A stretch of DNA of 64,000 bases from Cristatella mucedo (taxonomy: Eukaryota; Bryozoa; Phylactolaemata; Cristatellidae). The stretch's first letter is position 1, and every line of letters begins with the position of its first letter. Under the pieces are notes generated by a model. It was not told the DNA's origin and did not search any database. It worked only from the letters and a program-made list of their open reading frames with translations. Below are positions 31,301 through 61,600 of the stretch, one piece after another. The position numbers and the translations under genes are program-made. The stretch lies in the NCBI GenBank assembly GCA_009760855.2, contig WPIO01000023.1, positions 559,501-623,500 on the forward strand, in the 5' to 3' direction.

Positions 31301-34300
31301 AATGACATCGTAAAAAAAGCGAGGCTTAAACCGACCCTTGGGGTACCACATAAAGTGTTTTTACTCAGCATCAGCTCCAGGCGACTATGTAAACTGTACA
31401 CCCATTATTTCCCATAAGATGATGATGAGGCACAGCTATGAAGTCAAACCCTTTAACAAAACGCCGGTAGGTGAATAAATCCAGAAAACTGCATACTTGT
31501 CCTACATTCCTTTACGAGGACCAGTCCATAGCAGCTGCCACCTTTTCTGGATCTCAAAACGATATCTAAGATGATGGCTAATGTCGTGTTGTATCATTGA
31601 GTCAAAGAGGAATGGTCCTGGGGAAGTGTGGGAGCGAACACCGACAATGTCAAGAGGGGTAGGGCACTCGCCTTTGATGACCGGGCCGTGGGCTCAAGCC
31701 TTTCGACCTAAGTAAAGCGAGATTACATTGTCTAAGGGGGCTATATAAATAAAGTACATTCTTGACTCACTTTCCATGACTTGACTTTTCTTGACGTGTA
31801 ATTTGGGAGAAGCACGTTACATGAAAACTACATTCGCATATGATAATAGAGGCGCAAAAAGGGGAGCCGATATGGGCCGATGAGCTTGACAGCAAGAGAA
31901 ATTTGGTCAATGGTGTGGCTTTTTATGTGTTGGGGGATTAGACGTGGGCACTTAGGCAGACAGATCTGCAAGACATTGCAAGCATGTTGGAACACACTGG
32001 ATCAGAAGGGCTATCAAAGTAGACATTCCCAGAGAAGATGTCGATTCCTAGTGCAAAAAACAGAGAGAATGTAATAAGTCACAGATGAAGCTGGAATGCT
32101 ACCCGTGAGCTACATATTATCACCACCATAGGCAACATATCACTGGCTGAACAGACAGAACCGAAAATTTACAAGATTGCATAGCAGGAGCCAAGAAAGA
32201 TCTCAAATGTAAAAAAAGGGCTCGCAACAAAAGCTCATCTACCACGAGGTCTCAAAGATCCCGGAGTAATAAAAAAACATAGAATTAAAAACCTCCTGAA
32301 GTGGCTTCAGTGATGGCCGAGCAGTTCATTTTCGATGATGGATGTCAGATCGCTATTTACTCCTAGTTTTGTCTTTAAAATTAGCCATGCCTTTCAATTT
32401 GAACATGTAAGTGGTCATGTAACCTCCAGTGTAAAGTCGTGAGAAACATCAATTTTGGGAAGCACACAGCAAGCCTTCATGCAGGTCTAACTGCAGCCCA
32501 GCTAGGCAATAATAAATGTCTAGGGGAAGGCTCACTGCCTGATGCAGTTGGAATGCAAGTAAAGCATAACAAGACAGGAAAGTTGCGGGCTGAAGCAGTC
32601 ACATCAAGTCATTCGGCATTCTTCTAAAAGGGGGTATACCATGCGTTAGAACTAGCTTGCTTGAGCCCCGTAAACATTTTCTGGCCACGTACTTATTCAA
32701 GCATTCATCAGTAACAAAGCAACAGCAACTGATCGTTTCAGGAACACAAACCTACCAGTTTCAAGGTACCACAGATCCTTAAAACAAACTTGGTTATTCC
32801 ATGCTTTCCGATAGCCATCCCTGCCACTCCATATGTATAAGCGTGAATTAATTGAAACACAGCAGTGGCCAGCACGTGCCCGTGGAACAGCATCCTCATA
32901 TACTTCAACTGCAAGGGGCTCCCACGTCAAGGTCTCTGAAACAGTGTGATAGAAATGCAAGTAGCAAAGCTATCGGTATCACTAAGGACTGAAGGCCAAG
33001 GCTAGCAAGACGTAATGCTCTTTACCTCTTATTCAGAAATGAGTTAGCCACAGTATTCAATGAATGCATTCAAAATACCATAGGAAAACTTACATTATGT
33101 GCAAGGAAGGTGTGGATTAATATAAGCGCAATAATAACAACCTAAACACAGCCAAGACAACTGCCAAACAAGTTAATTGTGCATGTTTTCTGTACCTAGT
33201 AGTCCAACCGAGGCGGTAGCATGCACAATCCAGTAAATTTACTGCTTTCTCATATTAATCTCAACCGGTAGTATTTTAGGCGCTAATTTTGCAAAAACCC
33301 AGCAGTTTCAGATTTGTGTAAATTCCCATGATGGGTAGATTTTTTGGGCCTGCACTGTTATGTATGTATATTAGTTCATAATCTCTATCCCAGAACTTTA
33401 CATAGCTACAGGGCTCGAGCCCATGACCTTGGTTGCTTATACTTGACAACATTGGAAAGACATACATCAAGTGAAACCAAGCAGAGGAAGTGCATACCTA
33501 GATTAAGTGAAGCCAGTGCATTAGTACATTTCCACTCCTTCTCGTGCGTAGCAACCTTGACGTCTTCCATGACAAGCGGCACCCAGCCACCAAAGACAAA
33601 CATCCTGCAACAACAGTGTACAGATCAGTATAGCAAGTGAGTCAGCACATAGCTCAGAGGTCACGATACCAAAACGTGCAAGAACATACCTGTTGCCAAT
33701 AATGTTTGCAGAATGCAGGCTTCTGGGCAAAGGCGGAAGTCCCTGAAGCTCTGGCTTAGTCCACACCAGACTGTCTGGAATGGAGGCCAATGAAAAAGCT
33801 AGCCGACCACACCTGCAGCAGCTACTGCATTAATTTGACAATAGCAGACAGAGCTGCAATATATCGAGATGATTTATAGAAACTAACTAATCAGTACCTA
33901 GATTCAGCATCCAGAGATCCCCTAGTCGGCACCCACTCATCCCACCATAGATGATAAGTGATGGTGAAGGGTCTTTGCCACCTGTATAGACTGCAGCACT
34001 GTGCGATTCGCGGGGTGAAGGTGGTGTGCCCGAAGCACTTGGATACTCCCAGCAAAGCGTTACCGAGTTCGGCTTCAGCTCCAAAATGTGAAGATCATTG
34101 AGATACCTGAACAACAAATATAAATTTGTTTAAGATGCATCCATCGTTAATAAAAGATCACTACCCTGGTGAAAGCACACCACAAGCAACTAGATCAGTT
34201 CTGAGTTGAGATGAGAATCTTATATATTCCACTACAAGAATCAACTTGTCAATATATGAGATGTGTGCCGTTTCGACACAAATCCTGACATGGTTGTGTA

Positions 34301-37300
34301 AACAAACATGAAACAGAACCCAAGCTTCCACAAAGATACAAGGTGTAGCCATATGAGTCACTGTCAAAGTACAAGTAAGGGTCAGCTGATTCAACACCCT
34401 CGTTTGTAAAGCCACAAAATAGCCTTCACCTAGCTATCAACACTGCTTGCACTAGGCAATAAAGGATCGTTCATCCACGATCTCGGTCGTGAAGACCTTA
34501 CCCCCCCCCAGCTAAGACCTATGGGTACCTAACAGTAATAGAATGTGATATGCCCTCTGCCCAACCAGATAAGCACTTAATGAGCATCTTCGATGTAAAC
34601 TGGGTAATTTTATGGGTTGCACAATAGGTCATAGGTTACAATACCGGAAACTTAATAATTATAAAGGGCGTTCTGCTTGTTTTACTCTATCTTAACCAGC
34701 CAGAATGCATCAATTCAAGATTGCTATGCACGACAATGACTAGCTTACCTAACTATCTTCTGTGAGCTTTCCACACTACCCTGCTGATTCCATACCCACC
34801 CTACTAATCTTCACTGTCTTGCATCTTAAGTGCTTTAATTTAGTATCTACGTGTTAAGATTGTAACGAGTTCCACAACTCACCAATCTGAGAGCTCAAAG
34901 AATTTCCATTGCCTGCTAAAAGCAAGGTGATAGCCATCAAGGCTCTTCAGCTGCTTTATAAAAGGGGCAGTTGGATCAACTGACCTTTAATTTAATTTAA
35001 TTTGAAAATACGCCAGTGATGCATTTCACGGCATTCGGATTTTCGAGTTGGGATTTTAAAACCATTACCAGCAGACATCTAAAGGACATGGTGCCTTCCA
35101 AACATGCTGTCAAACCTGCTCCATGTATAAGCAACGGCATAACTATCAATGGCCTTGGTGGACAAATAGTTCAAGTCGCTCGACCTGCTATCAAGAAACA
35201 AGTTCAAGCTCTAGTTTAGCTCACTGAAATTTTGGAACTCTGGTCTCTCCTTAGCCATCGGGCTCGGTATTTTCAAGCTCCTTTAGTTGCTGCACTAGAT
35301 ATGGCATAGCCTACTGCCCCCTCAGCGACAGCAGTTACTGAGTCTTAGTGCAGGGATAAGGTGCTAGCACTTCACGATCCAAGTAGTGAGTTCAAGTTCT
35401 GAAGGCAGCCATTTCTATTGCCTGGTGCAAGCAGGAGTGATAGCTCTTTTAAGAAGGCTCTTTAGTTGCTACATAAACGTTAAGCTGTTAAATCAACTGG
35501 CTCACTTTTTTTTGTTACTGCATACTAGTCCCATCTTCCATCTTGACTACGAGTATTAATTAAGTTGCAACGAGTCATGACTATCACCAGCGATATGGCA
35601 CAGCAGTCTGAAGCAGGCACAAAAAGGAATTTTGAAAATACAACAATGCAGACCTGGGAATATTAAGAGCAAAACTGATTTTACCTGAACTGGGATCAAA
35701 GATGCAACATTGCGAACACAAAAAATGTTACAAGTCGAGTTGCAGAAAAAGCTTGTTTTTGTAATTGTTTTAACACAATTAAATGTTTCCCATGAGCCCA
35801 TAGTATATGTGGAAGGGTAGCTCACAGCATTCTTAGCAATCCAGTAAGTTATTGGCTGTGACTCGGTTATCTGGTGTTCATTATTGGCACTACTCCAAAG
35901 GCCTGGCAGCCGTTCTTTTCCTGTCTAGCAAAGCTTACTGCTCTACCAAAAGTTGATTTCCAAGATCGTTGGTCCTCTAGATAGCGGGTTCCCCACACCA
36001 CTCAGGCAACTGGTCCCCAAAACCCTATCCGACAGTTGGTCCCAAAATAGCCATACTCAGTTACTGAATGTAGATTGCTAAGCATGCTTCATTCCGAATC
36101 AATCTCTATTCAATGCACATGAATGTAGAATGCTTAAAAAACATTATTGTACACATTGTCACAAATGGACGTTTAAGTAAGATCTGCAAGTGACTGCTCT
36201 TAGCATCCCATTACCTTAGCTACTGTGTATCATAATAATACGACATCTACTCTCCAACTGCCGACTATGGCACATCTTTTTCAGCGGTCCTGAACTGCTA
36301 CTTCTATGCTACTCACTACCTCAACTGCTTTCCTAACTCTGCTATGCTTCCCACTTTCTCTTTGTTGCGTGAGACAAAGTCTGTTGGCTACCGAATGCGT
36401 ACCGAAAGCCGCTTAGGCTGTGAGTGCGCTATACAAAACTCTCCTGCGTAACACCCACATGGTCTTTATGACTTTGTGGAGTTACTGACGGAGATACATT
36501 ACATTACATTAGCAGAGTGCCCTGAGATGACTAAATCTCTTTTTAGGCAAGACATCTTATAGCAAAAATGGAATTAAGCACCACAACTACGACCAAGCTG
36601 AATGGGGGACCAACTGTTCCGAAAAAGTCTACAATGCTGCTATGATATACCACTGGCACGATCAAGTCAAACAGCTGTGCCGTAACGTTGAAAACCAGAT
36701 GTCCCTGCTTCATGGCTGGATGCTCTAAGATCACATGATACTTGACATTGCTTCTGCTTACACTAGACTAAGCATATGGTGCTAAATAATCGTATTCCAT
36801 TCCATTATAATCAAAGTTAATAATGCATCGTCGGTATCGTGGCTATGATCAAAGGTACTATTAACTCGCCATTCTTCCTCCATAACATGGCGCTAAGCTT
36901 CTACTGGGCCATGATAACCGAGGAGGTAAGGTGCTCACTCTTTACGACCAAGGTCGAGGTTCGAATCCTGCAGTTGAGCGACCTTATATTGCCAACTGCA
37001 ATCAGTGGTGATAGCCGATAAGGCTCTTCCGAAGCTATACAAATGAGGCTGTTAAATCAGCTAAGATTTTTCTTTTCTTGCCAGTAAAACTTTTCTTGCC
37101 AGAAGAGTCAGAATATACTAGGTCAGGCAAAGCTCAACCAAGGAAATAGTACCATTGTTCAAGCGGTTGTTACCACAATTCCAACTTAAGATTTAGATCA
37201 GTGGTTCTCAACCTTCCTAATGCCGCGACCCTTTAATACAGTTTCTCGTGTAGAGGCGACCCCCAACAATAAAAGTATTGTGCGCGAAATGTGGAAATGC

Positions 37301-38638
37301 ATGTTTTCCCATGGCCTTAGGCAACCTTGTGAAAGGGTCGTTCGACCCCCAAAGGGGTCGCGACCCACAGGTTAAGAACCGCTGGTTTAGATTGTCACAT
37401 CCTAGAACAAGTCTGACTTAGGAGCAAGCACATTGTCAGTTGGGTAGGTGAATCTGCCGGTTGTGATGTCGTTAAAAACAGGCAAAAATAAAGGGGTTAC
37501 AGGCCCCTGTGGGCTGTAGGGTAGGCATACTCTAAAGGATTGGTCGACTCGGGCAAGCAAGTACGATTGGCAAAATACCATGTAATCCCGACAGCTCCCC
37601 TAGCACAGATGTTCCTCCATTCCCCTTCCAAGCAGACAACCAGACAGCTAGTAGCCACCGATCGACCAACAAGCTAACTCTCTACAAGCAATGGATTAGG
37701 CAGCAGATAGAGAACTTTAGACTAATAGCAGTCTACTGAATAAAATTAGTCGGTGCCAAAACGAACTATATGATTACTAACATTAAAACAGCTAATTCAC
37801 GAGGTAACCTATAGAACAGTAAATGGGACTTTGATTTTTACACTCAGCTTCACTTCCTCTCTGCTCTGTTTTCAATGGAAAACTGCTAGAGTCGGCTAAA
37901 GAAGAACCAGCAAAACCCGACATATATTGTGACGTCACAACATACCATAGGCGAAGGTTATTGCCTCGGGCATGGGAAGGCTAATTAACCCCCAAACTGA
38001 TACACCTTTACTTGAAACCAAACGGAGCTCCCATCTTCTAGCACAAGTAAATTTGGTGTGCTTCAGTCATGTTTACGTTTTCTTAATCACCCACCACTAG
38101 TCATGTTAACAGCTTTGAGGCCTCTAGAAGTTGCTGCTAATGCAGTCCAAATCAGATCAGACACAGCTAGCATGCCTTTAAGCACAAGCCGGAAACATTT
38201 AGCACTACCTATCAATGAGCAAAATCTATATATCACTGAGTAGTGATGAGCCACTCAGCTGTTGGAAAGCTTTAGCACTTCTACAACAGGCACTTATATT
38301 ACATCAGACAACAAGTCGAATGCCACCAGGCCAGCACAAAAGTACCACAAGTAGTGAAATCTCTCTACCCTGGCTCAAACTCATGCACGTTCTTAGCAAA
38401 TATTATTTGCTGGATTGTCTGCTTAAGCTACATAGAGCTAAAAGAACGCCGAGATATGTCCCTACACTAGAAAGACAAAGGATGTATCGTATTGCTCTTG
38501 GGTTAATCCACGACCTTGCAACCATTCTTGATGTCTGTCAAAGCCAGTAACCTATATTGGCAGATGATGGAGACCAGCATTATCTCAATACAGCTACCAT
38601 GCTTGTACTGCATGACAAGCCAGTCACGAGCAAAGGCG

Positions 38639-38697
<59 letters not shown>

Positions 38698-40640
38698 CAT
38701 ATAGTACCCTAGGAGCTTGCTCTCTAGCCAAGAGCTTCATATATGCCACAGAGCTCGAGCCCACGACCTAGGTCGTCAAAGGTGAGCGAGCACCTTGACC
38801 CCTGGCCAAAGCAGAGCAGCATCCAGAATGCACATAAACACACATAATAATACGGGGAGACACATAAAAATTAGCTCACGCCGCAGCTCGGTAAGAAGCC
38901 TTACTTTGGGAAAGTACGAGCACGAAATGGGATCTGAAACAGCATGATTTCCCACTGCGCAATCACAAGCAGCTAGCATGGAGAAAATAGATATGTCCCG
39001 ATTCAAGAAGGATCGATGCAGTTAATACAAACAAGTTCAAGGAAAAACTGTATGGACAGCCTATATCTCGTAGGAATCGTGACCCAAGTAATATTAATAT
39101 AAAATCTAATCAAAACTCTTGCATTAAAAGCCAGACACGATCTAACCGGTCTTAACCATGCACAGTTGCCTGGGGACAAGCAAAAGAAATCAATAAGTCA
39201 CCTTGGTATGTTGTTTTTTGGGTCTTCACTATCATTTGCCAAGCCTCCAAACAGATAAACTTTAGTACCCCAGAGTGTAAAGCTGTGACCTACAAAACAA
39301 GTTCAAAAGTACTACTCGTAGAGTTTCCCCTTCATACGTGTTTCACAGGCCAAATTAATTAAAGCAGTAACATCAATATGCGTTGAATAAATATGAATCA
39401 ACTAAATCATACGACCATACAAAGCTCGACAGAGCCACCTATTCCAAAACAAATCGGGGCTCACAGGGCCTCAAAACAAAAGCTAGAACGCCATGCGTGA
39501 CAGCCATGAGAAACGGACACCTACTTAGAACAGGCCAGAATAATTGAACGCAAGATAATTTTTTTTTAAATGCAAAAAGTTTGCACAAATAGACCGTTGC
39601 ACCGACGGTGCTAGCAATAATTGCCAACATAATCAGTAATACTTACCAAGTCTAGGGCACGGTGCCGGGGCATTTTTTGGCGGCTTCGGCTTGAGTTTTT
39701 TCCATTCCCACCTACTGGCCTGTAGTTCAAATAATTCATTTGAGTACTTCCCATATTCCACCATACCGCCGAACACCAGCAGTCTCGTGCCATCGCATAC
39801 AAAGCCGAAAGCTGCACAACCGGGCGGGACCTCTCCTTTTACGGCCGGAACAAACCACTGATTGGTTGCTACAAAGAATAGACAAGTGAGTTGTCTCCAC
39901 CTTGTTCTGCAGATAACCTCTGCTCAAGGTGGCCGCATACCTATAAACAAGCGGCGATGCGACCCGAGGTGTGCACGGCGACACCGAGCAACGCAGCGAC
40001 TCACGAGCTCTTCGCGCGGCGCTGAGTAGCCACATCTCTTGCCATCGCTCAGCGGCAAACCGGGGCCACCCGCAGGGCCAGGGCCGTACAAGGCGGTCAA
40101 CAACATCACAAGTACAACCTAAATAGAATGGGCGACGCGCTGAACAGTGGGTAGGACGAAGTCACAAGATCGGGTAACGACCTCGTTTACTTCCGATCGA
40201 CGGCAGCAGCGGCGAGTCCCTAGATTGTTGCCTAGAAGATCGCCATTGGGCGCCGCCATATTGGCTGCCCTCTTTTTCATATTCAATTTTCTCCTAAACT
40301 ACGGAAGGTGGACATGGAGCAAACCCATGAAACATTACCGAAATGACTATAATAACCCTAACCCTACTTTTGGCACCCGTAAGCATGCGGATCTCGCATC
40401 TTCGCGGATGTAGCAAATGACAACAATTTAGCGCCATCTTGGCTTGGCCGGAGCACTGTTTATATCAGTAGGCAACCTACCAGTATTGAAGACATGGAGC
40501 TCGTCAACTATCCCTTCGTTGCCGCCTCCGAAAACGACCATCAGATCTTTTATGGCTACTGCCCTGTGACCATGGCGGGGTCTCGGACTAGACCCACTGG
40601 CGTTACTTATCTTCTTCCACTTCAATATGGGAGCCGCCAT
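13124..40640 (-). CDS. HCFC1: Host cell factor 1 (HCF-1), 22 coding exons, 1305 aa
   Basis: HCF-1 is a nuclear scaffold that joins transcription factors to histone-modifying complexes (SET1/MLL, Sin3) and helps control the cell cycle. Residues 1-350 (exons 1-7) form six Kelch repeats, with FGGG, FGGM, FGGL, YGGM, FGGW and the [17 protein letters not shown] signature, all very close to animal HCF-1. Residues 351-390 are the first fibronectin-III part (SAS1N-like). Residues 464-844 are a Thr/Ala/Val/Gly-rich linker. Residues about 1006-1235 are the C-terminal FN3 pair, with [19 protein letters not shown] and [15 protein letters not shown]. Basic patches PVKRV and SPKRIKLED near the end are likely nuclear signals. 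The exon lengths sum to 3918 nt and every junction phase agrees. No CETHETGTT-type proteolytic repeat is present. The start is the ATG whose product begins [13 protein letters not shown], matching the family N-terminus. Confidence 0.97.
13381..13444 (-). CDS. HCFC1: HCF-1 exon 21 (basic tail)
   Basis: Acceptor TTAAG ends at 13445 and donor GTATGT starts at 13380. It encodes residues 1235-1255, [27 protein letters not shown] is a likely part of the C-terminal nuclear localisation signal. Confidence 0.88.
13535..13859 (-). CDS. HCFC1: HCF-1 exon 20 (FN3)
   Basis: Acceptor AATAG ends at 13860 and donor GTAAGT starts at 13534. It encodes residues 1127-1234 with [40 protein letters not shown] and [20 protein letters not shown], the last FN3 domain. 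Confidence 0.97.
14027..14224 (-). CDS. HCFC1: HCF-1 exon 19 (FN3)
   Basis: Acceptor TTGTAG ends at 14225 and donor GTTAGT starts at 14026. It encodes residues 1061-1126. [40 protein letters not shown] and [10 protein letters not shown] are near-identical to the self-association FN3 domain of HCF-1. Confidence 0.97.
14440..14560 (-). mobile_element. Possible tRNA-derived SINE
   Basis: On the minus strand a tRNA-like stretch carries CGTAGGCTCAAATCCTGAT (B-box-like) downstream of GGTCTTAGCCTGAGGCTAAA. The rest is unclear. It lies in an HCF-1 intron. Confidence 0.35.
15423..15587 (-). CDS. HCFC1: HCF-1 exon 18 (start of C-terminal FN3 pair)
   Basis: Acceptor GCCAG ends at 15588 and donor GTAAGT starts at 15422. 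It encodes residues 1006-1060. [20 protein letters not shown] matches NQWFDVGVIKGTN..VTHYFLP of HCF-1. Confidence 0.95.
15671..15783 (-). CDS. HCFC1: HCF-1 exon 17
   Basis: Acceptor TTTAG ends at 15784 and donor GTATGT starts at 15670. It encodes residues 968-1005, [20 protein letters not shown] then a short acidic tail. DPLxxLASAA is a conserved HCF block preceding the C-terminal FN3 domains. Confidence 0.92.
16324..16379. repeat. 12-bp hairpin fused to a (GT)16 microsatellite
   Basis: ACACCTACTGAA (16324-16335), loop GGCA, then TTCAGTAGGTGT (16340-16351), perfectly complementary and running straight into the GT repeat (16348-16379). Confidence 0.9.
17512..17580 (-). CDS. HCFC1: HCF-1 exon 16 (linker, 69 nt)
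   Basis: Acceptor TTCTAG ends at 17581 and donor GTAAGA starts at 17511. It encodes residues 945-967, [20 protein letters not shown] and LAN. VKQE is a second sumoylation-like motif. Confidence 0.85.
18020..18100 (-). mobile_element. SINE/LINE 3' tail fragment
   Basis: ACATTTGTGTAACACCCTAT, AAATCTCTTTCTAGGCACTT and GGAAAGAAAGCAT. A similar arrangement is at 22375-22470 and 56420-56500. It directly precedes HCF-1 exon 15 on the plus strand. Confidence 0.55.
18120..18419 (-). CDS. HCFC1: HCF-1 exon 15 (acidic linker)
   Basis: Acceptor TTTGTAG ends at 18420 and donor GTGGGT starts at 18119. It encodes residues 845-944, an acidic, Ser/Pro-rich segment with [28 protein letters not shown] and [17 protein letters not shown] has the look of a sumoylation motif (psi-K-x-E). 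QVDS at about 930 resembles, but does not match, a taspase site. Confidence 0.88.
18735..18860 (+). mobile_element. Tc1-like transposase C-terminal fragment
   Basis: Encodes [20 protein letters not shown] and TSH before a stop. It is nearly the same as the C-terminus of the Tc1 copy at 28817 ([20 protein letters not shown]). Nothing upstream is clearly transposase. Confidence 0.6.
19245..20220 (+). mobile_element. LINE-B (second CR1/L2-like family), decayed C-terminal part
   Basis: + strand peptides [40 protein letters not shown] and KTRDCL are followed by broken versions of the HWLPV.., LKTTGDR-F and LWSS blocks. The 3' end (CTGTTGGCTACCGTATGCCC and after) recurs at 36245-36520. No intact ORF remains. 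Confidence 0.7.
20596..20805 (-). CDS. HCFC1: HCF-1 exon 14 (linker)
   Basis: Acceptor TATAG ends at 20806 and donor GTAGCC starts at 20595. It encodes residues 775-844, [20 protein letters not shown] through an Ala-rich stretch to [10 protein letters not shown]. The phase fits both neighbours. Confidence 0.88.
20879..21266 (-). CDS. HCFC1: HCF-1 exon 13 (linker)
   Basis: Acceptor TTTAG ends at 21267 and donor GTAAGT starts at 20878. It encodes residues 646-774, [20 protein letters not shown] and a long Gly/Ala/Thr/Val-rich run with KIIT-like repeats ([27 protein letters not shown]). The composition is typical of the HCF linker. Confidence 0.9.
21587..21895 (-). pseudogene. HCFC1: Duplicated part of HCF-1 exon 11 with flanking intron and SINE
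   Basis: It matches 23085-23393 through exon, acceptor and SINE. The exon-like part reads [20 protein letters not shown] then [11 protein letters not shown] and hits a stop soon after the similarity ends. It has the acceptor but no good donor, so it is most likely not used. The two copies differ by roughly 10% over the exon part. The SINE-1 of this copy spans about 21735-21895. Confidence 0.75.
22080..22220 (-). CDS. HCFC1: HCF-1 exon 12 (linker)
   Basis: Acceptor CTTTAG ends at 22221. It encodes residues 599-645, [20 protein letters not shown] to PATILGVSS, matching the LPAGTILKLVT..TILGISS block of HCF-1. The chosen donor at 22079 (GTTCAG) is weak but is the one that keeps the frame with exon 13. 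A stop follows if it is not used. Confidence 0.85.
22375..22500 (-). mobile_element. SINE/LINE 3' tail fragment
   Basis: ATAATAATAATTACATTTGT, then AGTCTCTTTCTATACACTAT and AAAGAAAGCAT. It is the same type as at 18020 and 56420, in an HCF-1 intron. Confidence 0.5.
22980..23200 (-). CDS. HCFC1: HCF-1 exon 11 (linker; source of a nearby duplicate)
   Basis: Acceptor TCATAG ends at 23201 and donor GTAAGT starts at 22979. It encodes residues 525-598, [20 protein letters not shown] followed by [14 protein letters not shown] and [14 protein letters not shown]. The 5' half of this exon, with its upstream intron and a SINE, is duplicated near 21590-21895. Confidence 0.92.
23222..23393 (-). mobile_element. 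SINE-1 in HCF-1 intron 10
   Basis: An inverted SINE-1 with tail AGGACCCTAAGAGAACTT, B-box region AGCCCACGACCCTGG and head GGCCCAAACCA. It is the paralogue of the copy at 21735-21895, both being part of the same local duplication. Confidence 0.8.
23443..23584 (-). CDS. HCFC1: HCF-1 exon 10 (linker)
   Basis: Acceptor TTTTAG ends at 23585 and donor GTAAGT starts at 23442. It encodes residues 478-524. [20 protein letters not shown] resembles the PQMSGMAAL..AAATQKI block of vertebrate HCF-1. Confidence 0.92.
24009..24085 (-). mobile_element. LINE-A 3' end fragment
   Basis: AATAATAATAATTCACTTGA, TAAAGCGCCCTCAGAGAACT and TAGGCGCTTTACATTTGCTG are the minus-strand image of the LINE-A tail. Confidence 0.75.
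24380..24500 (-). mobile_element. Tc1-like fragment
   Basis: On the minus strand one frame reads [12 protein letters not shown], like the Tc1 QSPDLNPIExLW motif. The segment is short and broken. Confidence 0.35.
24715..25960 (+). mobile_element. Decayed Tc1-like transposon interrupted by a LINE-A
   Basis: + strand peptides in different frames are [20 protein letters not shown] (helix-turn-helix), [23 protein letters not shown], then after the insertion [12 protein letters not shown]-type sequence near 25465, [11 protein letters not shown] near 25650, and [11 protein letters not shown] to ISSMPGRV near 25760-25900. A LINE-A 3' end is inserted between the VRRRP and KGVMIWG blocks. A run of 10 G interrupts the first block. 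It lies in HCF-1 intron 9. Confidence 0.65.
25235..25435 (+). mobile_element. LINE-A 3' end nested in the Tc1-like element
   Basis: Encodes [14 protein letters not shown]-like C-terminus, then the tail GTGCCTAGAAAGAGATTCAG and GACGGCATTATAGAAATG. The left edge of the insert is uncertain and may reach 25140. Confidence 0.65.
26135..26176 (-). CDS. HCFC1: HCF-1 exon 9, 42-nt microexon
   Basis: Acceptor TTGTAG ends at 26177 and donor GTAAGT starts at 26134. It encodes [14 protein letters not shown] in phase 0-0, in the style of the HCF linker. As the exon is in-frame it could be skipped. It is supported only by splice signals and composition. Confidence 0.7.
26948..27460 (+). mobile_element. 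LINE-A 5'-truncated copy
   Basis: Starts at the RT C-terminal block (CACTTTTAGGCCCCTTTATT) and runs through TCCTTTGGAGACCGTGCATT to the family tail GAGGGTGCTTTATCAAGTGT and TATTATTATT. It is close in sequence to 42050 and 58215. Confidence 0.85.
28047..28384 (-). CDS. HCFC1: HCF-1 exon 8 (first FN3 part and start of linker)
   Basis: Acceptor CTGCAG ends at 28385 and donor GTAAGT starts at 28046. It encodes residues 351-463. [20 protein letters not shown] and [20 protein letters not shown] correspond to the N-terminal self-association FN3 half. A Ser/Thr/Pro/Gln-rich stretch ends in [11 protein letters not shown]. Confidence 0.95.
28805..29790 (-). mobile_element. Tc1-like transposon, decayed
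   Basis: Minus-strand peptides appear in order over about 1 kb: [25 protein letters not shown] (HTH), [80 protein letters not shown] (aligned to the QQDNDPKHTA region), [17 protein letters not shown] and [20 protein letters not shown]. This is the normal order of a Tc1 DDE transposase. Frameshifts and stops disrupt it. It sits in HCF-1 intron 7 in the same orientation as the gene. Terminal repeats were not delimited. Confidence 0.85.
29800..29975 (-). mobile_element. LINE-A 3' end
   Basis: The ATAATAATAATGCACTTGAT tail, AAAGCGCCCTCAGAACTCAA, and GCTTTACATTTGCTGCAAAG, the reverse of the LINE-A tail. It abuts the Tc1 copy on its 5' side. Confidence 0.8.
29980..32700. other. HCF-1 intron 7 remainder
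   Basis: Apart from a minus-strand open stretch with splice signals (30148-30303) and a SINE-1-like copy (about 31645-31755), I recognise nothing. Broken + strand frames around 31850-32100 do not match a family I know. Confidence 0.5.
31645..31755 (+). mobile_element. SINE-1-like copy
   Basis: GGTAGGGCACTCGCCTTTGA (head), GACCGGGCCGTGGGCTCAAG (B box) and GGGGGCTATATAAATAAAG tail. The hairpin part is diverged. Confidence 0.6.
32756..32935 (-). CDS. HCFC1: HCF-1 exon 7 (Kelch 6)
   Basis: Acceptor TTTCAG ends at 32936 and donor GTAGGT starts at 32755. It encodes residues 291-350, including [34 protein letters not shown] and KDLWYLET, which close the propeller. Confidence 0.97.
33365..33450 (-). 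mobile_element. SINE-1 fragment next to HCF-1 exon 6
   Basis: ACAGGGCTCGAGCCCATGAC and CTTGGTTGC are the inverted B-box region. It is only about 50 bp from the exon 6 donor. Confidence 0.55.
33498..33604 (-). CDS. HCFC1: HCF-1 exon 6 (Kelch 5-6)
   Basis: Acceptor TTGCAG ends at 33605 and donor GTATGC starts at 33497. It encodes residues 255-290, [20 protein letters not shown] then [15 protein letters not shown]. It is almost identical to the family sequence. Confidence 0.97.
33690..33774 (-). CDS. HCFC1: HCF-1 exon 5 (Kelch 4-5)
   Basis: Acceptor CCAG ends at 33775 and donor GTATGT starts at 33689. It encodes residues 227-254, [20 protein letters not shown] and SANIIGN. Confidence 0.96.
33898..34106 (-). 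CDS. HCFC1: HCF-1 exon 4 (Kelch 3-4)
   Basis: Acceptor TTCAG ends at 34107 and the donor GTACTG starts at 33897. It encodes residues 157-226 with [20 protein letters not shown] and [15 protein letters not shown]. The intron before it (34107-39201, about 5.1 kb) holds several SINEs, a LINE-B tail and the SPIN-like element. Confidence 0.97.
34905..34985 (+). mobile_element. SINE-2 tail
   Basis: GGTGATAGCCATCAAGGCTC, TTCAGCTGCTTTATAAA, then GGATCAACTGACC. This is the 3' half of SINE-2. Confidence 0.6.
35345..35505 (+). mobile_element. SINE-2 copy
   Basis: GGGATAAGGTGCTAGCACTT, GAGTTCAAGTTCT, then GTGATAGCTCTTTTAAGAAG and GTTAAGCTGTTAAATCAACT. The spacing matches the copies at 1600 and 36905. 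Confidence 0.65.
36245..36520 (+). mobile_element. LINE-B 3' end
   Basis: Matches the end of the LINE-B copy at about 20010-20215 (GAGACAAAGTCTGTTGGCTA, then CTATACAAAACTCTCCTGCG) and ends in (ATTAC)n. It is 5'-truncated. Confidence 0.7.
36905..37065 (+). mobile_element. SINE-2, near full length
   Basis: GAGGTAAGGTGCTCACTCTT (A box), GAGGTTCGAATCCTGCAGTT (consensus tRNA B box), ATTGCCAACTGCAATCAGTG, then GAGGCTGTTAAATCAGCTAA. This is one of the two best copies of the family. Confidence 0.8.
37199..37384. mobile_element. SPIN-like hAT MITE (186 bp) with target-site duplication
   Basis: Ends are CAGTGGTTCTCAACC and GGTTAAGAACCGCTG, imperfect 15-bp inverted repeats of hAT type. The flanks are ATTTAGAT and GTTTAGAT, an 8-bp target-site duplication with one change. 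Internal blocks TAATGCCGCGACCCTTTAAT and GGGTCGTTCGACCCCCAAAG are the sequences I know from the SPIN / URR1 non-autonomous hAT group of tetrapods. No ORF. It lies in HCF-1 intron 3. Confidence 0.88.
38641..38820 (-). mobile_element. (TA)28 plus inverted SINE-1
   Basis: A perfect AT run of about 55 bp (38641-38695) abuts the 3' end of a SINE-1 (TAGTACCCTAGGAGCTTGCT, GAGCTCGAGCCCACGACC, CCTGGCCAAAGCAGAGC). It is in HCF-1 intron 3. Confidence 0.8.
39202..39289 (-). CDS. HCFC1: HCF-1 exon 3 (Kelch 3)
   Basis: Acceptor TTTGTAG ends at 39290 and donor GTGACT starts at 39201. It encodes residues 128-156, [20 protein letters not shown] and SEDPKNNIP. It is too short for a simple ORF search. Confidence 0.96.
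39647..39868 (-). CDS. HCFC1: HCF-1 exon 2 (Kelch 1-2)
   Basis: Acceptor TTTGTAG ends at 39869 and donor GTAAGT starts at 39646. It encodes residues 54-127 with [31 protein letters not shown] and [12 protein letters not shown]. Confidence 0.97.
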
Positions 40641-49600: not shown

Positions 49601-52600
49601 TACCACATCGTCAGCAGGCTTTTATGCACTTTTTTTTTACGAATGTTTCCTAACGGAAGCAGGCAGCTATCGATATGCTCGCTCATGCTGACCTCATTTT
49701 TTAAAACCACTTCACTTTGCATGCTCCCAAAATCTGGAAGTCATTACCAACTGAAGTCACAACATCCCACGACGACATCTACACGCTAAAAGCCCACCAG
49801 TCTCTCACAGCACTTGCTCTGTCCGTGTGAACCGTCATTATGTGCAACCAAGTGCTGACACTGTGGCTGCTATAGCTAACCACTTGACATGCTCCATTTC
49901 TAGCATTTCACGCAAAGTACCTAGAAAGAGATTTAGCTCTCCAAGAGTGCTATGCAAATATCTCATTTCTTTTATTGTCATCGACTCGCCACGGCACTAG
50001 TGTAGAGGTACAGTACATGCCACATGACGATGCCACACAGTGCCGGTCCAGCAGGAGCCGGACATACTGTAGCTCGAGGCTAGGTGCATTGTCCTGCTCC
50101 AAAGTGACCTTTCATTAGACGACCACATCAGCTCCACAGTCAAGTCTGCATACTTTCAGATACATAACATTGCTAAAATTCGGATTTGCTTATAGAAGGA
50201 TAGTACATCTAAATTAGTCCATGCACTTGTGACATCCTGTCTTGACTTCTGTAACTCACTGCTTGCTGGTCTACCGGCCTGTGCAATCAGGTGTTCACAG
50301 TTGGTGCAAAACGTTGCAGCTAGGCTTGTTTGTCGTGAGCGCTGCAGTTGCCACTTTACATTACATTACATTTACATTACAGCGTTTCTAGCTGACCTGC
50401 ACTGGCTCCCAGTCAATCATCACATCGACTTCAAGCTTCTGTCACTCATTTTTAGGTCCTATCATTCTCTGGCTCCAACCTACCTATCAGAACAACTCCC
50501 CCACCAGGCAAGGCATCGCACCACCTGCTTATCTGAATCGAATCGTTTAGCCATACCTCGTACAAACCTCAAATCCTTTGGAGACTACGCCTTTAGTTCA
50601 TATGCTCACAAAGCATGGAGTTCACTCCCGACATCCCCTGACTTGACGACATTTAAATAGAAGCTAAAAACGCATCTGTTTATCACTGCATTTAGTGAGT
50701 TCAGGTGATTTTTCCTTTGTGTGCTTATGCATGCTGACACTGCACATGCTGCCCCTAACCATATTTGCATGCTGACCCTATGCATGTCACCTCTAAACCA
50801 TGTTATGCTTGGTGAAATTGAGCATGTTACTAATAACCATTCGATTATGCTTCCTATACAGCATATGTAAAGGGCATAGAAAGAGATTAAGTTCTCTGTG
50901 GGCACTATACAACTATATTTTTCTTAATATTATTACTACCGGGCATGTTCTCAACTGCAAGGGTCCAAGAGACTAATGATCATGCATAGCAGGTCGAAGG
51001 ACAGCGGCTTCATCCCACTCGAACTCTGCCAAATTGAATGCATAATATCAAAAAGCTTGATGTCAATGGCCGAGAAAGCACCAAGCCACTTGGTGATGGG
51101 AGCTTTCATCTCACTGCATTAGGAGATGCAGTCATGAATTTAAGGGCTCGGGCATCCCTTCGAGCCCAATATCCCCAGGACCAAAAAGTACAGTGCTCGA
51201 CCATAATTTGGTTTACAGAGGGCTGTGGAGCCACGCCCAGGCTAATAATGACAGGAAGTGATTAAGAGACATCGGTACTACAGCATAAAATCACCAGCAT
51301 TCTGATGAGGTGGATGGAGCCAGCAGCAGACGTCACACAAGCTCATTTCTATCTATCTATCATTTCTATCTTTCTACTGTGTATCTATTAGCAAAGGCAA
51401 CTTTCTAAGATTGAACATGGCCTAGGGTTTGCTGCTGAGCTACCAATGTAGATAAAACCCAGATGGCAAACAGAGCTTCATCGAACAGCCGTAAATGATT
51501 ATTTAACCATGCTTGGCCGCCTACATTTCTTATTCATTCACACCAACTAGCCAAAGGTTAGGCAAACCAAATATGTACAGCATCAGCAAACCTACAACTG
51601 CACATTACTTTAGCACCGGGATTTAACAGCACACGATGTAACAGCAAAGCAAGCTGCCGCCTACTGCTGCGTTATTATCTATACCAAAGGTCGGCAAACT
51701 CCCTCCTCGAAGCAAGATATGGCCTAGCCTAGTACTCTAGTCCGGCCTACTGCCCCCTAGTAATTTACTGTAGGATCCGGCCTAATTGCATTGTCGCGGT
51801 TTTGTTCCCTTCATTACTGCTGGTTTCAGCTCAAGCTGTTACCCACCAGTGTTTATTTTTAGAACTGATATCAGGCACTTGAATGAAACAGAAGTGCCTG
51901 ACCGGAGAGGGATGATACATGTCTACCCCTATTATTGCCATGCATGTCGCCAAGTCTGTTTCGACTGCTTGTTCGTCTGGTCACGCCCACTCTGCCGGCA
52001 CACTGGGTGTGGTTTGTTCTGGCCTAGTGTGCTTTCTTGACTTCCTAAAATGGCCTACTAGTCCAAAATGTTTGCCGACCCCCGGTGCGCACAATGGGCC
52101 GACCATACGCCCGGTGGCTACTGCTGAGCCGAGGAGCACGGTCGTGCCGTGGGAGCAAAGCTCAGCACAGCTTATGCTGAGGGATCGCTAGAGTGTGCGC
52201 TACAACCCGAGACCAGCACAGCAAAAGCATCGGTTGCCGGTGGCCTGTGAGTCACAGAACAAGGCCCAGCTGGTTCAGTGACCTGAGTGCACGAGTACCC
52301 ATGGCGATGGTCCAGCTAGATGATAAAAGGCCACCAGATCGCTGTGCGACCTTGAACCTAAAAGTGAGCAGTGGGCAGCTAAGGGTGAGAGCTTGTCAGC
52401 AGGCACCACCTACCTGCAGCTCGATTGGGAGCCCTTAATTCGACGGCTGCTCAGGCCAATTAGGTGTCCCCCTTTAGAGTGGCTGGCTGCCTCGAGGCAC
52501 TGATTTGCAGCCACACTAGAGCACAGCTTTGTGCCTCAGATTCCTACATTCGGTGCTTCGGTACCAGAATGAAGCACCACTTCAAGCATGTAGGTTTAGT

Positions 52601-55600: not shown

Positions 55601-58600
55601 CGGGCGAATGCAAGTGTCACCTCAGTTGCATCAGAGTGCAGGCATGGACAACGTAGGGCCACGGTCGCACAACTGTCACTAGACTGCAGACAGCAGCCTG
55701 CTGAACAGGGTCCTCTTATGCAGATGAACGAACGAACGACCGCAGGTCAACCAAGGCCAGCTCTCAGGCGAGCAGCCAAGCGGCAACATGGGCAACGCAC
55801 CACCTAGCTCCAGCACAGCCAACGGCAAACAGAGATAATCCGAGCCAGCGGATCTTCAGCCACCAAGCCTTCTAGCTGCTTCGGCAGAAAACCAGATTTG
55901 CTTCGGCAGCAAGAAAGGCTCTTATGGCATACTACATCAAACACCATCTCTCTAGTCACTGTCTATTACCACAGCTGCTGTTTTAGCAGCCAAAACCGGC
56001 TCAGGAGAGGAAGGGAGGCACCAGACCTGTTATCAAAAAGAAACTGAATATACAGTCTATTGATCAGGCATCGCCTGGCTAGTCACTACACTGGCCACCA
56101 GCACTTCTTGGACTTGGAGCATGCTTATCTAAAAGCAGGCAGGCAAAGGCTGACACGTCGAATAACGGAACCAAAACCAGCGCAGCCCTCCAGCTAGAGG
56201 CATGCAACAGATTTTGGTACGACGGGTCATGGTATGTCGAAGAGCGGCAGGCCGAAACCAATGGCAGAATACAAGGGGGGGGGACGCGATCGAGGGATCA
56301 CCAAAGTCTTAACCAATTCAAAGCCAAAACAAGCCACCTTAAAGAGGCTGGTCCGATGTAACATCTGAAAGTAGCCAAGTAGGCAAGGACTCTTAATCAC
56401 AATGTTGATGATAATACTCATAATAATAAGCATTTTTGTGAGCTAAGCAAATTAGTCCCTTACCAGGCACTTGACATAGGGTGGAAAGAAAGTATGTCAA
56501 CTGAGTAGTGACACTTATAACATTTTCGGAAATTGCCACTTGCCCAAACAAATGAAGGATGCTTCACGTGAGCAAAGCATATCCTGTGTGTAGCACATAG
56601 ATTTCTATTTTACTTCAAATGTCTTTACAGGTCAAGGGTTGCCTTGATGGCTACAGATAGAAAGATCAAGGGCTATTTATGGGTAGGAAGAGGTCGGTTA
56701 GATGCAAAGCTACCACGACCCGACCCGAGTGGCAGGAGTGGGTGACCTGAGGAAGGGGGAGTGCACAATTCAGACAGGCAGGTCCGACCAACAGACTTGA
56801 GTGATGGAACCTTCGAGCTGCAGCAGCACTGCTTTGATGGAGGGGGGAGGAGGAGGAGCCATTGCAGGTCCAAAAGTAGGTGCTGGCAGTTGAACTGCTC
56901 AGGACAGACAAGCCTAGCTGGCCAGAGCTTTGAGCCTTTAGCAGCAGCAGGCAAGGAGATCTATTTCAGTCAGGCTCTTAGCTTCGAGGGAGAATGATGA
57001 GCTGCTCTCACCACGACCCTCCCAGTGCAGCCAGCCGACCGACCGAACGACCGACCGAACGCCCGGCCACTCTCCAGGACATGCCGAGCGATTCGGGAGC
57101 AAGGCTTATAGAGACCGATGAGACAAAGCTCGCCGATGCCTGGAGAGTCTTAGCTCAGGAGTTGGGTGCATGCACTTTTCCACTCCGGTCGTGGGTTCGA
57201 GACCTGCAGTTGGCGATCCTAGATAACCTTTAATGCCACGACTTCAGCTCAAGACTAAGACGCTAGCGGACAAGAGACAGTCCCATCAGAGCCGCAGATA
57301 CGGAGTCTCGCCGACACAAAATACAGAGGCTCACCGACAAGCAGATACAAGGGCTTGCCGAGGCCACGGTAGATTGCCATCAACTAGCTAGTAGACGACT
57401 CACCGGCTCTGCCACTGGCCTACGGCAGCAGCAGCGGCTGCAGCCGCGTTCTCCCGGCACCGATCGGCTGGGAAGTGGGGCACTGTGGGAATGATGTCGG
57501 CCAGGTCGTTGATCATCACATGACCGGAGAAGTGCCGTTTGTTCTCGGACCGGGCGGCCAAAGCTCTTTCTTGGATCCTGGCTCTTTCTTGGATCCTCAA
57601 ACCACTCTCCTGGCTTGCGGCGCCCTTGATGAGGCCTGTGGCAGCAAAAGGCATTTCGAACGTAGGCGCGAAGCAGACAGACCGACATGCCTACTAGTAG
57701 GCAAGCGAAAGCTTGCAAGCTCGACCCTCGGTGGTCGGCAAGACACAGGGCGCGACAGACCAATCGAGGTTAGTATGCAACATAGAGTACTGGACGAGAC
57801 CTATCGCGAGCCAGCTGCTGCGCACGCTGCCCCGACCTAGCATGACAGGCCAGTATACCCCGAGCTTGCAAGCGCTGACGAGAGGCCCCACATAGCGTAA
57901 CAAACGAAGCTCGAGTGCCCTCCTGAAGTGGCAGTGCCACATCTGTGCCTTACATACACAATCCAGCAGCATCAGGCACCGCATGACGATAGGACCAAAC
58001 AGCGTGTGGCCCAATTTCGCAGGGGCTGTCATTCACATGCAAGCCCAATACCATCAGTCAGCAGAAGCCGATCAGCATGGCAAAAAATCGGCATAAGTGA
58101 GTGCTTGCTAAGTTGAGCTGAGCGGCAAGCACACAAAGGATGCGACTCACGCCCATCTCATGCTACATAGGCAGTCGGAACCGCTGCAAAGCGACTGAAC
58201 ACACTGTACTAGCCAACACACTAGGCATGGTTTTGTCGCTCACTTTTAGGTCTCTTCATTCTATGGCTCCAGCCTATCTTTCAGATATACTACCCCATCA
58301 GGCAAAGCATCGTACCACTCGCTTTTCGGAATCCAACAGTCTAGAAATACCTCGTACAAACCTTAAATCCTTTGGAGACCGTGCATTTAGCTCGTATGCT
58401 CCCACAGCCTGGAACTCCCTCCCGACCTGCATCAGAACATCCCCTGACCTGACCACATTTAAAAGAAACTTAAAAACATACCTATTTAGGACAGCATTTA
58501 GTGGGTCCTTGTGATTCGTCCTCGATGTGCTTATGCGTGCTGACACTGTTCATGCTGCCACTAACCACATTTGCATGCTGACCCAGTGCATGTAACCCCT

Positions 58601-61600
58601 AACCATGTTATTCATTTTGTTTGTTTTTCAAGCATGATTTTACTTACTATTCTATTGCGTATCACTTTGCAGCAAATGTAGAGCGCCTAGAAAGAGATTG
58701 TTCTCTGAGGGCGCTTTATCAAGTGCAATATTATTATTATTATTAGGTGTGGCGACCTGTAACACGAGTTTGCGTCAAACACACACCGAGCAGTAGGCAC
58801 AATCTGAAGAGAAGTTAGGCGAAAGACAAGGAGTGAGGCAGCATTTGGACAAGTGCCCAACAGCCCCCCAGCCGAAAAACGCTCTTGCGTAATATACTTT
58901 TCAAATGCCACGGCAGCAATCGTGTCAAGAGGAATTCCCCGGTTGGTCTCCCAAGCAAATGCTAAGCCATTTTGGGAGGAATAAAAGGAATGCCAAATGA
59001 GCTACTCATTTTGAAAAGAAATCTGACTAAATCAAACGTCACTACCCAACGACTTGCGCGATAGTTGCCTAGCTAGAAACGCTTGTTTATGGAAATGGAA
59101 TTAAAGGCCGTTTCCATTGCAGTTTGATCCCCCTGACTGGCACTGACATGTTATTAACCCACCGACTTGAGATGCACAGGCCTGTGCCAACAATGCTCGA
59201 TAACGATGGCTCATGCAAGATTTGTCACAGCAGTCCACTGGATGCTGCATCAGCAACAGGATTGAGCCATTTCACACCCATAAAGACATACTGCACAAGG
59301 CATACATAATGCTCTCCAAATACAGTACCAACAAGCTCAAACACAGGTTTCGAAAAACAAGGCACAATCGCAAGTTTGCATAGGCATTTAAGAGAGTAAT
59401 AGAAGAGATGAACTGTTCCTACATACATCTCAGCTGAATACACTGCAGTATAAAGGGGCCAATGCAACGTGGTCATCAACTTGCCCTATAGGAGCTGGTG
59501 CAAAAGCAATACACAGGGCCTGTTGTGGTGGCAGCTTTTGATCCCATGTTTTAGCCTAAGGATAAGGTGCTCGAACTTCACCAATCAGGTTGGTTATTGA
59601 ATCCTACAGCACGTAATAATTCATTGCCCTCAGCTGGGCGATGGCAGCTAAGGACTAGGAGCTGGTGCAAAAGCAATACACAGGGCCTGTTGTGGTGGCA
59701 GCTTTTGATCCCATGTTTTAGCCTAAGGATAAGGTGCTCGAACTTCACCAATCAGGTTGGTTATTGAATCCTACAGCACGTAATAATTCATTGCCCTCAG
59801 CTGGGCGATGGCAGCTAAGGACTTTTGCTATGGGCCTGCTGAATCAGTCGAATTTCGTTCGCAACACTGCTCAAGTCCTGAAGCTGTCGCGTGTGTTGAA
59901 AGCATTTCGTGTGAATAATTAGACTATTGCACAGTATGATGTGAGGTGAATACCAAGTGTTGCTCAAATTAGGAGCCCTAATTTAAAGAAAGACATCTTG
60001 ATGATTGCCCAGAGAACAAAACCCAAGTTGGGTTTAAGTTTCACGAGCCCCATTTTGTGCATGTATAGGCAGTGGCCAGACACCGATAGAAGCAATGCAG
60101 GATATGAATGATAAGGGTGGGTGCAAACTGCCTTACTAAACTTACAGCTTAAGTGAATGTGGAACTTATATCAAAGTGACTCACAAGGGGGAATTAGCAG
60201 TGGTGCTTATGTACAGGTGGTACTTACCAACTTACAGTTTAATTGAGTGTGGAACTCTAATCAAAGTGACACAGAGGGACAATTAGCAATGGTGCCCATG
60301 TACAGGAGGCACCTACAAATCATACTTGACAGCAAATAGTCACACGGCAAAAAAAAAATGAGCATCACATGGCCCCATCTGGAACCTCCAACCACCAAGC
60401 ACAGCTGGGATACATGTGTCCACTATGGTACCCTTAATGGTCGAAATGGTGTCTCAGAGGTGCTCCTGAATCAGAGTACCATTATCACAGCCCTGGACCT
60501 TCCGGAATTATCTCAGTTCACAATGTCTGGGAGCATCGTTTGGCCCAATACTTCTGAGGGGTGGGTGCAAGAGAATGAGAGGTATGTAAGTTCTCGGAGG
60601 CCGACAGGAGCATGAAATCCATCAGAGGCAAACTGCATAGGGGCTGCAAGAACTATTCAACGACCTAACCAGGCATTATGGAAGGGGGCTTGCTCCTGGA
60701 AAAGTCCTCACCTCAGCCTGACAGGAAAGGTCAAGAAGCAGTCCCATGGGACAATTCCTGGGAACGACTACGACCTGAGGTGTCTAGATGCATTTCGACA
60801 ACGACTGTTGCTGCCTGGAGATGTGCAAAACACAGGTCAGTGACGATTGTGCAATAATTATATCAGGGAATGAGATTAGGTTATGCATGTCAAATGAACC
60901 AATAATGCTTACCGGATCACAAATGCAATAATACTACTACTACTACTAATAAATTTGATATAGCACACTCAGGGAACTCAAAATCTCTTTCAAGGCACTT
61001 GACATTTGCTGCAAAGGAAGCACGATCGAATGGTTAGTGGTAGCATGCTCAATTAACAATACGAATAACAGATAGGGGTGACATGCACACGGTCAGCATG
61101 CAAGTATGGTTAGTGGCAGCATGCACAAGCATATAAAGGTGGAATCACAGGGACCCACTACATGCTGTGCTAAATAGATGTTTTAGTTTCTTTTTTAATT
61201 TGGTCAAGTCAGGAGATGATGTGACACAAGTCGGGAGTGAGTTCCAGGCTTTGGGAGCATACTAACAAAAGGCACGGTCTCCAAAGGATTTGACGTTTGT
61301 ACAAGGTATAGGAAAACAGTTAAATTCCGATGCTTAGCCTGATGGGGGAGTCGATCTGATAGGTAGGCTGGAGCCAAAAAATGAAGGGACCTAAAAGTGA
61401 GTGACAAAACCTTGAAGTCGATGCATTGCTTGACTGGGAGCCAGTGCAGGTCGGGAGAAGTTGTGAGATGTGGCAAGTGAGACCCTCACGACTGACAAGC
61501 CTAGCAGCAGAGTTTTGCACCAGCTGTAAGCACTGATTGCAGGCAGGTAGACCAGCAAGCAGTGAGTTATATAAGTCGAGACAGGATGTCACAAATGCAT

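Follow-up and report, generated by a model that had tools for sequence, protein, structure and literature searches.

The window, the whole 64,000-nucleotide stretch analyzed here (C155:559501-623500), carries at 37199-37384 a non-autonomous hAT element of 186 bp whose 15-bp inverted ends are imperfect. This is very probably a dead copy of the SPIN family, which would have entered an ancestor of the lophotrochozoan host from another animal, spread, and died. SPIN (SPACE INVADERS) is best known from mammals, reptiles, and frogs, with mouse copies of the URR1 type, and is a textbook example of a transposon that crossed between phyla; because only a small number of invertebrate hosts have been documented, the routes of transfer are guesswork. 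A first-pass annotation, made from the letters of the window, had called the element a SPIN-type hAT MITE, and that assignment is supported by TA-centered duplications, a putative SPIN interior, mouse snippets (three of the five found through strings of the element itself), and a full-length relic whose transposase is broken.

Element in the window

The element and its flanks are as follows (positions are those of the window).

37199..37384, plus strand: SPIN-type hAT MITE, non-autonomous, 186 bp (from ends, target-site duplication, genome copies, and copy alignment)
37199..37213, plus strand: left terminal inverted repeat CAGTGGTTCTCAACC (from sequence and copy alignment)
37370..37384, plus strand: right terminal inverted repeat GGTTAAGAACCGCTG, consensus GGTTGAGAACCGCTG (from sequence and copy alignment)
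37191..37198, no strand: left target-site duplication copy ATTTAGAT, TA at positions 4-5 (from sequence, with TA-centered duplications at other copies)
37385..37392, no strand: right target-site duplication copy GTTTAGAT, 7/8 identical to the left (from sequence)

Read directly from the sequence, the length, ends, and flanks given by the first-pass annotation are exact; its 8-bp target-site duplication is there as flanking 8-mers, but the duplication is imperfect, with 7 of 8 bases identical. Comparing the outer 16 bases of one end with the reverse complement of the other gives 14 matching positions. Pairs of 8-mers 186 bp apart that match at 7 or more of 8 bases occur at 30 of 63798 window positions, and an inverted pair of 15-mers (at least 13/15) at the spacing of the element occurs at a single place, 37199-37384; the combination of duplication and inverted pair there is not a product of chance. 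The other copies in the genome also exclude a chance inverted repeat, all 40 of the candidates scored being matches. None of the listed window open reading frames of at least 120 amino acids overlaps 37199-37384. The element has the properties of a MITE: it is short and noncoding, occurs in many copies, and corresponds to a larger element, sharing its ends, from which internal sequence has been deleted.

Short copies in the genome

The genome surveyed comprises 572,011,866 bases in 688 contigs. A DNA search with the element returned 2218 first-look candidates, 40 of which were scored and all of which match; the 39 scored candidates other than the window copy are 88-90% identical to the element. 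A pattern of the two ends with 31 fixed bases, run over the whole genome, gave 145 matches versus 0 for a reversed control pattern. Twenty of the 40 scored copies were aligned, and a 187-bp consensus was built from the 19 that remain without the window copy. All 20 aligned copies have the ends, which are short (~15 bp) as in hAT elements and vary at scattered positions. The window copy shows 93% identity to the consensus, and its Kimura two-parameter (K2P) distance of 0.074 lies within the 0.039-0.080 of the other 19, a range biased low because the alignment took the copies most similar to the window copy. Most copies carry their own decay and their own duplication, with L004 and L006 as short copies without a good one. 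In L016, L048, and L052, the right-hand palindrome is altered (GGGGTCGAACGACCC or similar beside the end), as by exchange within a hairpin.

Longer copies and target sites

A 62-base interior attributed to mouse SPIN/URR1, and wholly absent from the window copy, served as a second probe. It returned 67 candidates in the genome, and all 40 scored places match at 84-92%; in each of these 40, one or both sides match the short consensus as well. Both ends fall within the stretch read in 27 of the 40 longer copies, and 19 copies of 302-332 bp yielded a 321-bp consensus. L050 and L069 are near-duplicates of one another. Some copies, L055, L060, and L061 among them, are 447-509 bp long and have a different internal block. 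This other block (roughly GGCTCAGCTTATTAAATAGCAAG...) was seen in L055, L059, L060, L071, L073, and L078 and partly in L061; apparently it either marks a further MITE class of middle length or belongs to the parent. Three long copies that seemed to run on were extended: two, L083 and L084, are derivatives that lost internal sequence and have a second end, and the third is the full-length relic described below.

The 8-bp target-site duplication is described as a trait of the hAT superfamily in the passages of PMC11008031 drawn on here. Duplications matching at 6 or more of 8 bases flank 18 of the 20 aligned short copies and 22 of the 27 two-ended longer copies, alongside the 7/8 duplication in the window. 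TA stands in the middle of the left flank (positions 4-5) in 15 of 20 short copies, counted by eye, and in 22 of 27 longer copies, and the target of the full-length relic described below is likewise TA-centered. Such an nnnTAnnn target is the preference of the Buster/SPIN group.

Comparison with mouse sequences

Five mouse snippets can be aligned to the 321-bp consensus: Ate1 primers R1 (positions 302-321) and R2 (246-266), an Scd1 primer (237-254), and two Pqbp1 sites (28-45 and 114-138). For none of the five did any of 2000 shuffles align as well. We take the snippets to be SPIN/URR1 copies; the passages that contain them do not say SPIN. The sources of these passages are PMC2767504 for the Ate1 primers R1 and R2, PMC9482360 for the Scd1 primer, and PMC3713010 for two Pqbp1 sites. 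Ate1 R1, Scd1, and the first Pqbp1 site were found through strings of the element itself, so their shuffle results overstate the evidence. Ate1 R2 and the second Pqbp1 site were chosen without element strings and are a fair test: the former matches at 18 of 20 bases (consensus 246-266) and the latter at 21 of 24 (consensus 114-138). The second Pqbp1 site has no match to the short consensus, as expected from the deletion in the short form. By the positions in PMC3713010, 129 bp separate the two Pqbp1 sites, whereas the consensus has them about 95 bp apart, which means that this mouse copy is collinear with it only in part.

The assignment to SPIN is thus supported by the 62-base interior attributed to SPIN/URR1 and by short mouse snippets, limited material on which the noncoding ends and interior appear common to these copies and those of tetrapods. 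A similarity confined to the ends is rejected on the evidence of this interior and of the snippets at 246-266 and 114-138. Strings of the element were also searched in 5.39 million papers, where many other matches look like chance, several of them on unrelated organisms with an 11- or 12-base string only. Exact SPIN patterns had no match in IMG/VR (viral) or GTDB (prokaryote) contigs.

Full-length relic and transposase

The first-pass annotation had proposed a search for autonomous copies in the same genome, and one decayed full-length copy with a broken hAT transposase was found. It occupies C111:23756954-23760241 (3288 bp), with both ends and a TA-centered target duplication GCTTAATC/GCTTAAAC. 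The sequence between its ends contains pieces of a transposase that are spread over different reading frames and interrupted by stops. Two of four pieces match three of four hAT open reading frames of the same genome, collinearly and at 26-34% identity (best E value 3e-8, for a target set of these four proteins only); the remaining two gave E values of 0.065, which is weak, and 3.9. In a Pfam search, none of five relic pieces exceeded the cut-off, and one transposase piece had no match in a PDB search. The hAT transposase of the parent is represented by this broken relic.

One transposase piece searched against the genome gave 5 rows of 133 candidates, namely itself and three places (two rows overlap). 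These three relatives are 41-64% identical to it, and no intact transposase was seen in the genome copies read. That the transposase relics are few and diverged argues against a single very recent burst.

The abundant hAT with Dimer_Tnp_hAT domains (L032-L037) and the loci with DUF4371 domains (L026-L031, L039-L042) were considered as the autonomous partner, which found no support: no SPIN end was present at these 16 loci, read over 3.2-5.1 kb each, stretches that may not reach both element ends. A separate hAT family in this genome is very young: 55 places share the same 76.8-bit dimerization-domain score, many of them with open frames of about 640 amino acids, and L032-L037 are 98.9-99.8% identical over about 2 kb, with no SPIN end in the stretches read at these six loci.

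Host gene

The gene around the element is HCF-1-like, as judged from matches to the Kelch stretch of human HCFC1. The search covered the exons within this query stretch. The query matched the minus strand of the window at 40586-40479 (92%) and at the places below.

39636..39881, minus strand: HCF-1 Kelch-region exon, second of those detected, lying before the element in the direction of the gene (77% identity over 82 amino acids to the human HCFC1 query)
39200..39293, minus strand: HCF-1 Kelch-region exon, the third detected, preceding the intron of the element, 3' boundary approximate (HCFC1 query match)
33626..34108, minus strand: HCF-1 Kelch-region sequence after the intron, aligned through stops and probably more than one exon (HCFC1 query match)

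The match that defines the third exon runs from 39293 to 39123 on the minus strand and overruns a stop near 39200; further minus-strand matches lie at 33606-33436 and 32936-32757. The element sits within the intron that separates the third detected Kelch-region exon, ending near 39200, from the next match, which starts at 34108. The first-pass annotation had placed it in HCF-1 intron 3: the Kelch matches uphold an HCF-1-like gene and an intron, and the number of that intron is approximate only.

MITEs are occasionally co-opted by their hosts, and this copy sits in an intron of a conserved gene, which would suit a role as, for example, a regulatory or splicing element. The copy has nonetheless decayed like the others, in identity to the consensus and in K2P distance alike, and we give co-option a very slim chance. 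The intron copy would instead be a neutral insertion, with no sign of function seen.

Host lineage

A 21,008-bp contig (C688) is mitochondrial. Its COX1 gene, read by eye against known COX1 proteins, has AGA or AGG where serine is expected (11 codons) and AAA where lysine is expected (2 codons), with ATA for methionine and TGA for tryptophan. This codon usage argues against vertebrates, planarians, and echinoderms. The gene order includes the blocks COX3-K-A-N, I-ND3, and F-ND5-H-ND4-ND4L-(T)-S-CYTB-ND6-ND1. We take these, by comparison with known orders, to represent a lophotrochozoan order that is not that of a pulmonate snail or an annelid. The contig accordingly points to a lophotrochozoan, not a vertebrate, in keeping with the invertebrate host supposed by the first-pass annotation (code and order both read by eye).

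In the same contig, a stretch of 2119 bp is perfectly duplicated in tandem, and there are further inverted copies, also perfect and about 1.8 kb long; this structure is either real or an assembly artifact. COX1 fragments lie off this contig at C166:4375626-4376390 and C83:2826-3735 and are possibly nuclear copies of mitochondrial DNA. A genome search for the hemocyanin domain PF14830 gave no match, which does not show absence. Searching the genome DNA with a conserved end of 18S gave 8 matches, at 80-92% identity. In the window, 59489-59823 is a perfect tandem duplication of a 167-bp unit, and 50229-50660 and 58140-58514 are similar open reading frame fragments that by eye resemble the end of a non-LTR reverse transcriptase.

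Because both interior and ends match mouse sequence, the assembly might be that of a vertebrate or the copies might be vertebrate contamination, and the first-pass annotation had named a tetrapod genome or a contaminated assembly as grounds for giving up its reading. The mitochondrial contig, with AGR as serine and a lophotrochozoan-type order, stands against a vertebrate assembly. Against contamination, element copies lie on many multi-megabase contigs, that of the window is enclosed by an intron of HCF-1 on contig C155, and most copies bear separate decay and separate duplications. GC content is 45% both in the window and in the 56 kb of flanks at 20 loci. We therefore regard both contamination and a tetrapod genome as very unlikely, and accord either the barest likelihood.

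Age and origin

Divergence from the consensus averaged 9.5% (8.6% without CpG) in 30 of the 145 pattern matches, the first listed, for which exact ends were required and divergence was taken over the printed part. For 17 of the 19 long copies it was 10.6% (10.2% without CpG), leaving out L071 and L078, the two most divergent and apparently mosaic copies; the mean K2P distance with both is 0.130. At an assumed 2-3 substitutions per site per billion years, a rate that may differ in this host, the copies would be roughly 30-50 million years old.

Ends of the CAGTGGTTCTCAACC type are common to many hAT families. The element could on that account belong to an old, vertically inherited invertebrate hAT of Buster or Charlie type that resembles SPIN only through conserved transposase-binding ends; other hAT families are indeed present in this genome, and the transposase relics, at the 41-64% identity reported above, suggest some depth. 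The likeness to mouse nonetheless extends beyond the ends, to the snippets at 246-266 and 114-138 that had not been search strings, and the interior attributed to SPIN/URR1 matches at every one of the 40 scored places. A divergence of about 9-10% from the consensus is also far below what neutral descent over more than 500 million years would leave. We consider such vertical inheritance improbable.

Horizontal transfer is most likely the best reading of the presence of the family, because neutral change over more than 500 million years would have erased any noncoding likeness between a protostome and mouse. The first-pass annotation had pointed this way in noting that elements of the SPIN group are taken as cases of horizontal transfer, and the noncoding similarity to mouse, in ends and interior, supports such a reading. 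The anatomy of the element is read from its letters; from it we infer an order of events. A SPIN element would have entered an ancestor of the lophotrochozoan host from another animal, and its transposase would have bound the ends, excised the element, and pasted copies into TA-centered 8-bp sites. Internally deleted short forms would then have outcompeted the parent and multiplied at its expense. The transposase genes would finally have decayed and the family died, leaving copies some 9-10% from their consensus.

Comparison with known systems

SPIN has been reported from the snail Lymnaea stagnalis. It is also reported in the bug Rhodnius prolixus (PMC11614815) and in a turtle (PMC4054807), and a hAT element of about 1000 copies with significant identity to SPIN is reported in Biomphalaria glabrata (PMC5440852), as far as the passages of these papers that we used go. 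Among the papers listed by a literature search for SPIN hosts, Biomphalaria was the only mollusc with a SPIN-like element, and no other lophotrochozoan appeared. The suggestion of the first-pass annotation that the element adds a candidate host lineage therefore holds in that another host is added, and is weaker than it sounds, Rhodnius and Biomphalaria having already been reported. An invertebrate, even a lophotrochozoan, host of SPIN-type elements is already known from those passages, and the present genome is another host of a known family.

It is a tentative proposal, to which we give somewhat less than an even chance, that a lophotrochozoan lineage other than the pulmonate snails, possibly of a phylum not yet listed among SPIN hosts, was invaded by SPIN, that the full system is fossilized there, and that the lineage is a candidate link in the spread of SPIN. 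If so, the fossil full-length parent and two or more MITE classes would make such animals candidate links in that spread among tetrapods. A contiguous invertebrate genome with many candidate SPIN sites and a full-length relic offers datable copies and orthologous sites, which can test the time of entry, the number of entries, and whether the lineage was an early or a late recipient.

The elements share with the SPIN MITEs of tetrapods (mouse URR1 type) their ends, noncoding interior blocks, and an 8-bp TA-centered duplication, and in both settings full-length copies are mixed with short, internally deleted ones. They differ in their non-vertebrate host, and the likeness was judged on these parts. 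The 187-bp short form and one middle-length form have internal blocks without a match to a named SPIN MITE.

Rhodnius, Biomphalaria, and Lymnaea are likewise invertebrate hosts with many copies, although the mitochondrial gene order here, set against known orders, is not that of a pulmonate snail such as Biomphalaria or Lymnaea. TcBuster and other hATs of the Buster group have the same nnnTAnnn target preference. The passages of PMC5440852 report no intact transposase in the Biomphalaria assembly, and none was seen in the present genome either. OposCharlie1 (OC1) is another hAT repeatedly transferred among tetrapods and invertebrates; its divergence from consensus, given in the passages of PMC3621081 as 2.2-10.5% over 12 lineages, is similar to the ~9-10% found here, and OC1 was set apart from the present family by name only.
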